From the NCBI GenBank assembly GCA_023260395.1, contig JALQVI010000005.1:1-46372 (forward strand): a DNA stretch of 46,372 bases, given 5' to 3'. Positions 33,738-37,439 of this stretch are shown here, piece after piece. This DNA is from Candidatus Nanopelagicales bacterium (GTDB lineage: Bacteria; Actinomycetota; Actinomycetes; S36-B12; UBA5976). Position numbers and translations under genes: made by a program. Within the stretch, counting starts at the first letter, position 1. Each line of letters begins with the position of its first letter. Below the pieces are notes generated by a model that did no database searches, was not told the origin of the DNA, and was given only the letters and a program-made list of their open reading frames with translations.

Positions 33738-34610
33738 TTAGACAAGCGATGGAGCCCATTCGCCGGCTGCTGCAACGAGCGCGCGAAGTTCATCGAGGGC
33801 ACTTTCTTCGATTGGCTTCAACGGGCCGCGAGCATTGTTGCTCGGCACGCCAAGAACAGTCATCAGCGCCTTGGTGCGTGCGATGTAACGACCTGATTCA
33901 ACGAACTCAAGAATTGGCTTCACAGCTGCGTATGCCTCTTCACGAGTTTCTGGATTCAAGATGCCAAGGTGAGCCTTTGGCAACGCGTTGCCTGCGCCAG
34001 CAATCCAGCTCGTGCTGCCAGCAGCAAAGAATGACACTGAATCAACGTCAGCGCCACACACGATATCGATTTTGCCGTCGTACTTCTTGAGCATATCGAT
34101 GCGCGAGAGATCGCCAGATGCTTCCTTGATGCCAACGATGAGTGGATGCTCGGCAAGCACGTCCATGGCTTCGGCTTCAATTGATACGCCGATGCGACCT
34201 GGGTAATCATAAAGAACAGCCGGGATTCCAGCAGCGTCAACGACTTCTTGCATGTGAGTTGCGATTTCATCCTGAGTTGGAACGGAGTAAGCAGGAGAAG
34301 CAATCATGAGGCCATCGCAACCAGCGTTTTTGCCGATGAGTGCGTGAGCGATACCTTCACGAGTCGACATGCCGCCAACGCCGGCAAGAACTGGAACGCG
34401 ACCAGCAACCTGCTTAACGATTGCGTTAGCAACAGTTGCGCGCTCGTCGAGATTGAGTGCATAAGCTTCGCCGGTTGTTCCAACGGCAACAATGCCATCG
34501 ACACCGTGCGACAAAAGTAGTTCTGTCCATTCCTGAACAAGTCCAAGTTCAACTTCGCCAGCAGCATCAAATTGCGTGATGACTGGTACGTATAGACCGG
34601 TGAGTTTCAT
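33738..34610 (-). CDS. DapA/N-acetylneuraminate-lyase-family aldolase (class I, Schiff base)
   Basis: 290 residues, TIM-barrel. GTTGE (44–48), Tyr108 (SPAYSVP), YDYPGRIG (Tyr134, Arg139) and the Schiff-base lysine GIKEASGD (Lys162) are present. These are also the residues of true dihydrodipicolinate synthase, so lysine biosynthesis is possible. However, the setting beside an amine-oxidase-like flavoenzyme and a GntR regulator suggests a catabolic pyruvate- or keto-acid lyase. YDYP in place of the commoner YNVP also suggests a paralogue. It follows the flavoenzyme gene by 26 bp with a weak SD (GGAAA). Confidence 0.88.
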   Translation of the reverse strand: MKLTGLYVPVITQFDAAGEVELGLVQEWTELLLSHGVDGIVAVGTTGEAYALNLDERATVANAIVKQVAGRVPVLAGVGGMSTREGIAHALIGKNAGCDGLMIASPAYSVPTQDEIATHMQEVVDAAGIPAVLYDYPGRIGVSIEAEAMDVLAEHPLIVGIKEASGDLSRIDMLKKYDGKIDIVCGADVDSVSFFAAGSTSWIAGAGNALPKAHLGILNPETREEAYAAVKPILEFVESGRYIARTKALMTVLGVPSNNARGPLKPIEESALDELRALVAAAGEWAPSLV

Positions 34611-34636: not shown

Positions 34637-35983
34637 TTACGAATTATCTGTTGCTAGTTTTGCTTTTACTTGCGTTCCCGCAAGAGTTCCTGTGGTGATT
34701 GCTGTCTCGGTGTACATCGTTCCCAAGAAGTCGCCAGCCAAATGCACCCGACCGTTATCCCGCGTGAAAATTGGTTGGAGCTTTGCTCGACCTGGGAAAT
34801 TAAAAGTCTGACCTTGGTGCCACTTCATAATTTGATGTTCGACAACCGTGTCCGAGAAGCCAGGGAAAATCTCATTGAGATCTTTGTAGTACGTCTGGAG
34901 AATCGTTTCTTCGTCAGCATCGAGTAGTTTGTAAGCCCAATCGGTTGCTGTGAAAACGAAAATTGAACTGCCCTTTGCGCGCTGCTTTTCGGCGCTACGC
35001 ACAACGCTGGTTTGGTTCGTGAAAATCGTGAACGAACGCTTTGGCGAAGCGATGCCGTAGCTGTTGTCCCACACTGCCTTGTCTTCGTTGGTCAGGAATG
35101 CGCCAGCGATGTATGGGCCGTATTTAATTTGACCAAGTGCGTCCATCAGGTCTAGTTGCGCATTTTTAAGCAACTGGTGAGTGACCGAAGCGATGGTCGC
35201 CATGACAACGTGGCGGGCTTGAACAGTGTGCTCACCCGTTGCATCCGTGTACGTCACTTCTACGTGGTCATCGTGAATAACTACTTGCTTGACAGGTGAA
35301 TTCAACTTTGCGCGGTCCCCCAGAAGTGAACCGATAGTTTCTGGCAAAACCGAGGCGCCACCCCAGATGCTGTTACCCAAACTTGGGCTGCGATCCCACA
35401 CAATTTTGAAGTAGCCAATACCGGTGCCTGCAGCAACTTCGTTAACACGACCAGCTGAGCGAGTAACAGTGGCGCCGAACATAGCCATTGCATCGCCGGA
35501 AGTCTTGCCAACGAAATCTTCGAAGGTCTGATCGTTCTTGTAGTTGTAAATGCGGTTTTGCAAATCCCAATACGATTCACCTGCGCGACGCTTCGAAAGT
35601 CGCGAGTAGTACAAAACTGCAGCGCGTACTTTGATGCCGGACTTAAAAAGTTGGAAGCGATCTTTGAATGACATCGGAATACGGAATGGGTACAGCTCGA
35701 CAGCACCACTTGTTAACAGGGCGCCATTCATCGCAAGTCCCGCGAGGTGACCATCGATGGCACGAATTTCAACACCGACTTCATCAGCGATACGAGCAGT
35801 TTCGGAACCAGGACCGCTAAACACGTGGCCACCAACATTGAGCCAGTAGTCGCCACGCTTTTCAGACTTGATACGTCCACCAAATCGATCGCCGGCTTCG
35901 AGGAGCAAAAAGTCTTTGTCGCGACATTCCCACGCAGCACTTAGGCCGGCCAGGCCGCCGCCAACAACAATCACGTCATGCAT
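34637..35983 (-). CDS. FAD-dependent amine oxidase / protoporphyrinogen-oxidase-like flavoprotein
   Basis: 448 residues. The N-terminal FAD dinucleotide-binding motif is VIVVGGGLAGLSAAWE, then LLEAGDRFGGRIKSEK (GxxGGR) as in monoamine oxidases. The C-terminal FAD motif is GRVHLAGDFLGTMYTETAIT, where canonical amine oxidases have AGE(H/D), and it lacks the covalent-FAD cysteine. The middle substrate domain (about 100–330) is rich in aromatic residues and gives no clear substrate. Likely reaction: oxidation of an amine (or C–C bond) with O2 or another acceptor. It starts at ATG 35983 (SD AGGA) and is the first gene of a two-gene unit with the DapA-family lyase, divergent from the GntR regulator. 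Confidence 0.87.
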   Translation of the reverse strand: MHDVIVVGGGLAGLSAAWECRDKDFLLLEAGDRFGGRIKSEKRGDYWLNVGGHVFSGPGSETARIADEVGVEIRAIDGHLAGLAMNGALLTSGAVELYPFRIPMSFKDRFQLFKSGIKVRAAVLYYSRLSKRRAGESYWDLQNRIYNYKNDQTFEDFVGKTSGDAMAMFGATVTRSAGRVNEVAAGTGIGYFKIVWDRSPSLGNSIWGGASVLPETIGSLLGDRAKLNSPVKQVVIHDDHVEVTYTDATGEHTVQARHVVMATIASVTHQLLKNAQLDLMDALGQIKYGPYIAGAFLTNEDKAVWDNSYGIASPKRSFTIFTNQTSVVRSAEKQRAKGSSIFVFTATDWAYKLLDADEETILQTYYKDLNEIFPGFSDTVVEHQIMKWHQGQTFNFPGRAKLQPIFTRDNGRVHLAGDFLGTMYTETAITTGTLAGTQVKAKLATDNS

Positions 35984-36110
35984 CTAGTTCCTACCTTTTT
36001 CTCAGAGGTTCTAGGGCAACGATAGGTAGGCGCTGGCTGGAACAAAAGGCGTACGAGAGTTTTTAGACACTTTCTAAGTCATCAAGTCAATTAGGCGATA
36101 ATCTGTTGCT
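35984..36110. promoter_or_regulatory. Divergent promoter region between the flavoenzyme and GntR genes
   Basis: 127 bp. For the regulator, TAATCT (36099–36104) lies exactly 6 nt before its GTG. An inverted repeat TTAGA-CACTT-TCTAA lies about 45 nt upstream, and AAGTCA is directly repeated just after it. CCTACCT (35990–35996) and AGGTAGG (36024–36030) form a 7-bp inverted repeat on the flavoenzyme side, the first arm being its SD. No -35/-10 for the flavoenzyme is convincing. Confidence 0.4.
36099..36104 (+). promoter_or_regulatory. Candidate leaderless -10 box for the GntR gene
   Basis: TAATCT, a 6-nt spacer (GTTGCT), then GTG at 36111. No SD. Confidence 0.5.
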
Positions 36111-37439
36111 GTGACTGAGCCAAGAGCAACTATGGATGTATCTGAAAAGGCTGTTTTGGCGGCGCCCTTGCGACTTTCTGGCCCGCGCTGGACTTCGGTA
36201 GATCTCGCTGAACTCGTCGGCACCAGCCAATCATTTGTTGCTCGTACCTGGCGAAAATACTTCACTGCCGGGACTAACATCGCGCTGCCGAGTGACATGG
36301 AATTGCTTGCCGTGAATTATTCGCACGGGCACGGGCTCTTACTCGCGCGCGCATCGAGTAAAGCAACTACTCAAGTCGCTGGCTTGCTCGATCACGGGCG
36401 AGCAATGCGTTCACCTCGACGCATTGCGTTACAAACCATGCTTGCTGGTTTACTCGTTCAAGATTCCAGTGACGAATCAACCATGTCGTTGTCGGAACAT
36501 TTCGTTACGCAGGCGCCGTTTGGCATGAGTAACTTTGCCATTGGTACAAGTCAGCGGCCGAGTGCGCTACCGGTTCACATCACATACGTGCAGGTTCCTG
36601 CCAATCATTGGCAATCATTGCTCATACCTCTGATTCATAATGCACATTTAACGTCAGCGGGAAATTTACAGCGACTGCATCAGGACTTAATTGTTTGGGT
36701 AAAGAAATCATCACAAGACTTTTTGTGGATTGCTCAACAATCAGTAACAGCGAACACTCAACGATCGAAGTCACGAATTACTAGCCTGCGTTCATCTCAA
36801 CAAATAGTTGCCGATCAAGTCTTCGAAAAAATTGTTGACTTGGTATGGGACGGAAAACTTGCGGCAGGCGATCGCATTACCGAATCGTCACTTGCCGCGG
36901 CATTGCACACCACTCGCAATCAAACTCGCGATGCATTGCGGGCTCTTGCTTCATCAGGTCTGGTAGACCATCACCCGGTTCGCGGCGTACTCGTCCCTAC
37001 TCCGAAACGAAGTGACATCGCAGATATTTACGCAGCTCGACGTGCGCTTGGCACCGAGATTTTGCGCCGTGCGATTGAAAACTCTGCTTTTGATTTCCAG
37101 GCTGTCAACAATGCGCTCCAGCATGTCATCGCAACAGGAAAGACCGGAAACTCTTACGAAACAGGAAATGCTGATTTACATTTCCAAGATGTCATCGCGC
37201 AAGCATCCGGCATGCGCAACATTCCACAGATGTTCAACATCTTGGCAAAGCAATTACGTATCTACATTGCCGTAATGGGTTTCTCGTATTTTTATTCCAT
37301 TGATGACATGGTTGCCGATGATTCAGAAATCTATCGCCAGCTCCAAGCTCGTAATTTCGAGGCAGCTCGAGTTGCTTGGAATAAGAAGATCAATGACTCA
37401 CTCACATTCATGACGACACATTTAAGTAAGTCACGATAA
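36111..37439 (+). CDS. GntR/FCD transcriptional regulator with an extra N-terminal HTH-containing half
   Basis: 442 residues, twice the usual FadR-subfamily length. The C-terminal half (about 225–442) is a normal GntR winged helix (QIVADQVFEKIVDLVWDG, LAAALHTTRNQTRDALRALA, HHPVRGVLV) and an FCD-like ligand domain (RRALGTEILRRAIENS, NADLHFQDVI). One metal-ligand His of typical FCD domains (EHxxI) reads DSEI here. Residues 1–220 are extra: LSGPRWTSVDLAELVGTSQS with FVARTWRKY looks like a second helix-turn-helix, followed by ~170 residues I do not recognise. It is divergent from the flavoenzyme/lyase pair and probably controls it. Continuous frame, no internal stop. Confidence 0.83.
   Translation: MTEPRATMDVSEKAVLAAPLRLSGPRWTSVDLAELVGTSQSFVARTWRKYFTAGTNIALPSDMELLAVNYSHGHGLLLARASSKATTQVAGLLDHGRAMRSPRRIALQTMLAGLLVQDSSDESTMSLSEHFVTQAPFGMSNFAIGTSQRPSALPVHITYVQVPANHWQSLLIPLIHNAHLTSAGNLQRLHQDLIVWVKKSSQDFLWIAQQSVTANTQRSKSRITSLRSSQQIVADQVFEKIVDLVWDGKLAAGDRITESSLAAALHTTRNQTRDALRALASSGLVDHHPVRGVLVPTPKRSDIADIYAARRALGTEILRRAIENSAFDFQAVNNALQHVIATGKTGNSYETGNADLHFQDVIAQASGMRNIPQMFNILAKQLRIYIAVMGFSYFYSIDDMVADDSEIYRQLQARNFEAARVAWNKKINDSLTFMTTHLSKSR

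Follow-up and report, generated by a model that had tools for sequence, protein, structure and literature searches.

The window, that is the whole stretch of 46,372 nucleotides that was analysed (contig JALQVI010000005.1 of a Candidatus Nanopelagicales bacterium), contains a regulator gene that diverges from a flavoenzyme gene, which is followed by a gene for a DHDPS/NAL-family lyase (table 1). The open reading frame of the regulator is real and is best read as one translated protein. By using a codon-usage score derived from 24 further genes of the window, the N-terminal half of the protein (residues 1-228) was found to score +0.10 bits/codon in the annotated frame, with the other five frames at −0.24 to −0.57 bits/codon and interrupted by 9-17 stops; the C-terminal half scored +0.30 bits/codon (24 reference genes, 0.09-0.49). 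In the sliding coding track the best frame is unchanged across the junction of the two halves, and all 442 codons are free of stops and frameshifts. Because the N-terminal half is coding in the regulator's own frame, nothing points to a frameshift artefact where the two halves join, and its origin as a frameshifted or out-of-frame product was ruled out by these frame statistics. The composition of the N-terminal half is outlying, with 19.7% Ser plus Thr (maximum in the 24 reference genes, 16.6%) and 13.2% Gln plus Asn plus His (maximum, 12.3%), the latter being likewise high in the C-terminal half (13.6%).

Table 1. Features of the regulator gene and its neighbourhood (positions in the window).
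Feature	Position	Strand	Basis
DHDPS/NAL-family lyase, downstream of the flavoenzyme	33738..34610	-	PF00701, E 2.1e-53
FAD amine-oxidase-type flavoenzyme, divergent neighbour	34637..35983	-	PF01593, E 4.3e-35; proteins 47-49% identical in Rhodococcus (pNit), Pseudonocardia (plasmids) and genome G166
Divergent intergenic region, 127 bp, expected operator site	35984..36110	.	Position between divergent genes
Whole regulator gene	36111..37439	+	442 codons, GTG start, alternative ATG 36132; ORF list, translation, one-frame coding signal, start scan
HTH-like segment, residues 26-50, RWTSVDLAELVGTSQSFVARTWRKY	36186..36260	+	HTH_AsnC-type, E 0.028-0.051, below cut-off; IS630 HTH profile, above 5000/5000 shuffles; hhalign, residues 26-50
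Orphan segment, residues ~59-221	36285..36773	+	Family databases and PDB sequences, chance-level matches at most; genome, plasmid, phage and viral-contig searches, no credible relative; profile tests at chance
GntR winged-HTH DNA-binding domain, residues 234-295	36810..36995	+	PF00392, E 1.4e-11, 44.3 bits (cut-off 27)
FCD effector domain, residues 305-424	37023..37382	+	PF07729, E 7.4e-10, 39.7 bits (cut-off 24.3); metal-site His replaced (Q359, D404/S405, K426)

Residues 229-442 correspond to a divergent GntR-FCD regulator, both domains of which exceed the curated Pfam cut-offs; the order of a GntR HTH followed by a C-terminal FCD domain places the protein in the FadR subfamily of the GntR superfamily. 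The earlier note on this DNA had described a 442-residue protein with these two domains in its C-terminal half, and the list of open reading frames, the translation and Pfam all agree with it. The best match among sequences of solved structures, 2hs5, aligns to residues 241-421 only. Searches with the C-terminal half returned many GntR-FCD proteins of normal length, and in the tree it joins a clade of congeneric regulators on a long branch (support 91/88), a placement for which long-branch attraction is a possible cause. In the two loci read, the tree-nearest congeneric proteins are of normal size (243-271 residues) and belong to a different operon, of the SDR/flavin-monooxygenase type. All other FCD frames listed for the family of the window have at most 314 codons, which marks the extra half as unusual.

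The metal-ligand columns of the FCD domain were read after alignment to 26 further GntR-FCD proteins. The first His column is occupied by Q359 (His in 16 of the 26), the second by D404, or by S405 if the alignment shifts by one (His in 25 of 26), and the third by K426 (again His in 25 of 26), leaving D355 as the only metal ligand still present. The three His residues conserved in metal-binding FCD regulators are absent, and the loss of a ligand noticed earlier as a single change of EH to DS stands, with its extent corrected from one His to all three. Gln at the first His position is common to the congeneric GntR-FCD clade (L006-L013, L002), in which the other two His residues are kept.

Comparison of residues 1-228 with Pfam, NCBIfam, PHROGs and the sequences of PDB entries gave nothing above chance level and no known ligand-binding fold, the finding set beforehand as one that would speak against a second HTH. 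The sole Pfam match of this half, below threshold, is HTH_AsnC, to which the fragment around the predicted HTH scored 13.8-14.7 bits (cut-off, 27). Against an IS630 transposase profile built in this analysis, the HTH of which falls on residues 17-50, the N-terminal half outscored all 5000 shuffles in HMMER, yet stayed below accepted cut-offs. Single-sequence AlphaFold2 runs gave a mean pLDDT of 35-37, too low to decide anything, and a low-confidence model has helices at residues 32-37 and 42-50. The segment TSVDLAELVGTSQSFVARTW singled out in the earlier note is indeed present, whereas its reading as a helix-turn-helix is suggestive only, no profile passing its cut-off: judging from sequence resemblance, residues 26-50 are HTH-like and the N-terminal half may hold a second HTH.

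The remainder of this half was tested for three identities, all of which failed, so that the earlier statement that some 170 residues could not be placed still holds. An Lrp/AsnC protein with HTH and RAM domains was rejected, since only the HTH resemblance was found and no AsnC effector match: the Lrp profile was equalled or exceeded by 45 of 5000 shuffles of the whole half and by 4070 of 5000 shuffles of the tail (HMMER). An origin from an IS630 transposase, spotted by eye, was supported for the HTH part, with the rest scoring no better than shuffles (with the HTH removed, 632 of 5000 as high in HMMER; for the tail in hhalign, 39-50 of 400 as good, i.e. ~10%) and no DDE family match in Pfam scans. 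Finally, a duplicated GntR-FCD protein was rejected: against the GntR-FCD profile the N-terminal half ranked at about line 217 of a table with 2000 shuffles, 570 of 5000 shuffles scored as high, and over the tail this profile stayed at chance level.

Searches of the tblastn type with the N-terminal half covered overlapping samples, namely 43 genomes from its family (those of the genus among them), 166 from its order, 394 from its class and 396 from its phylum. They returned the protein itself and weak matches (E 4e-4 to 0.1 per genome) judged to be due to chance, with no credible relative. The weak matches were rejected as they cover differing stretches of the query, hit unrelated proteins or dubious open frames and have no architecture in common. 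Two chance-level pieces (E 0.6) were found among plasmids and no match among phages and viral contigs. The search for the same architecture in other genomes, proposed in the earlier note, thus yielded no second copy and no homologue of the N-terminal half; homologues split into two genes, as a fusion error would predict, were not found in the searched genomes because no homologues of this half were found at all.

With respect to the neighbourhood, close homologues of the flavoenzyme are missing from the genus, where the best matches span its FAD-binding N-terminus only, and it looks accessory by this comparison. In the loci read, each of its relatives in Rhodococcus, Pseudonocardia and G166 adjoins a DHDPS-family gene, with an aldehyde dehydrogenase also present in Rhodococcus and G166, which suggests an amino-acid or amine catabolic module, as judged from sequence; the DHDPS of the window is only ~28% identical to the DHDPS proteins of these loci and is therefore not clearly the same lyase. 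A related flavoenzyme on a Staphylococcus equorum plasmid (L079 1914-3303) has its annotation split into three CDS pieces and, hence, looks broken. The regulators near the relatives in Rhodococcus and Pseudonocardia are of the plain GntR-FCD or the PucR type, the PucR-type regulator beside the Pseudonocardia pair being unrelated, and the open frames of G166 include none that could be recognised as a regulator. The extended architecture, therefore, does not travel with the flavoenzyme-lyase pair, the point that the earlier note had proposed to check. The 127-bp intergenic region contains no strong inverted repeat and no clear operator pair; a small inverted repeat, TTAGA-CACTT-TCTAA (36063-36077), was seen by eye upstream of the regulator and may be due to chance.

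These data are best explained, with somewhat better than even confidence, by a FadR-type regulator that is specific to its lineage, evolves fast, controls the divergent flavoenzyme operon and carries an orphan N-terminal extension. Placement divergent from a catabolic operon is common for FadR-type regulators, and from this position and the family the target would be the flavoenzyme-DHDPS operon. The C-terminal GntR-FCD half would most likely bind the divergent intergenic region and repress the operon, or co-regulate it with the regulator's own gene. The N-terminal half would be a lineage-specific extension of unplaced ancestry, probably gained by fusion, which may open with a short helix-turn-helix followed by ~170 residues without relatives. 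With the three-His site gone, effector sensing may be metal-free, may have moved to the extension or may have been lost. Against this explanation count the N-terminal half's lack of a homologue by which conservation could be judged, its weaker coding signal, its outlying composition and its sub-threshold HTH match, and the long branch of the FCD half is as compatible with relaxed constraint as with new function.

A functioning second DNA-binding head is a possible, minority reading of the sequence comparisons. It would make the protein a two-headed regulator, in which the N-terminal HTH binds DNA alone, the orphan residues make up another domain, for effector binding or dimerisation, and the protein bridges two operators or signals. 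The HTH-like segment, which beats every shuffle against an HTH-bearing profile and gives the only Pfam match of this half, and the two helices that persist even in the low-confidence model are consistent with this proposal. However, by taking into account the sub-threshold scores, the tail without a recognisable fold, the single copy of the architecture in the genomes searched and the intergenic region lacking a clear operator pair, it is considered rather unlikely. Its fuller form, in which the second HTH head is genuine and sensing would have shifted from an FCD domain devoid of its usual metal ligands to a new kind of effector or dimerisation domain, is judged improbable.

A serious rival of the fast-evolving FadR-type regulator, although in itself unlikely, is that the extension is decaying or poorly folded, namely what is left of some unrelated gene after degeneration (the best lead being an IS630-type transposase) or new in-frame sequence with no folded function, in a regulator that is drifting as a whole. 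The weak codon bias and outlying composition of the N-terminal half, the loss of the metal-site His residues, the long branch and the colinearity of the HTH and C-terminal segments of this half on the IS630 profile would fit such decay, but the intact reading frame, the normal coding signal of the C-terminal half and the chance-level likeness of the tail to IS630 argue against it. The position of the start was also considered. In the start-site scan GTG 36111 has no Shine-Dalgarno-like sequence and ATG 36132 (residue 8), with AAG at 7 nt as its sole Shine-Dalgarno-like sequence, may be the true start. A start farther inside, leaving the upstream open frame out of the protein, would agree with the former observation and with the congeneric GntR-FCD proteins, which begin at most about 50 residues before the GntR domain. 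Such a start is very unlikely, however, as neither ATG nor GTG occurs from residue 161 to the GntR domain, the nearest ATG, GTG or TTG being TTG at residue 205 (AAG as its only Shine-Dalgarno-like sequence), and the upstream frame carries a coding signal in phase with the regulator.

A GntR-FCD protein normally couples a single DNA-binding domain to a single sensing domain. Should the extension fold and bind DNA, a two-headed architecture would be added to a very large family, along with an example of how sensing can be rewired once the FCD metal site is lost; otherwise, the protein would exemplify how a rapidly evolving regulator of a small genome can carry an orphan extension. The protein is mildly curious and falls short of a discovery, being of ordinary GntR-FCD type with an extra front half and a second HTH that is not proven.

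Among known systems, the N-terminal HTH of IS630 transposases and that of Lrp/AsnC proteins locally resemble residues 26-50, whereas the remainder of either family is undetectable in residues 59-228. Escherichia coli NanR is a GntR-FCD protein that likewise has sequence before its GntR domain, a short extension of about 30 residues as opposed to ~220 residues with no detectable relatives here. The NanR extension is among the topics of a published study (PMC8012715). The FadR-subfamily regulators TM0439, Streptomyces coelicolor HypR, CitO and DgoR have the same GntR winged HTH followed by FCD and lie beside a catabolic operon, HypR among genes under its own control (PMC6608401); they differ from the present protein, in which ~220 extra residues precede the GntR domain. 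The FCD metal site of TM0439 and HypR consists of three His residues, with metal bound in the former and predicted in the latter, and H134, H174 and H196 of TM0439 are matched here by Gln, Asp (or Ser) and Lys (PMC6608401, PMC7674646).
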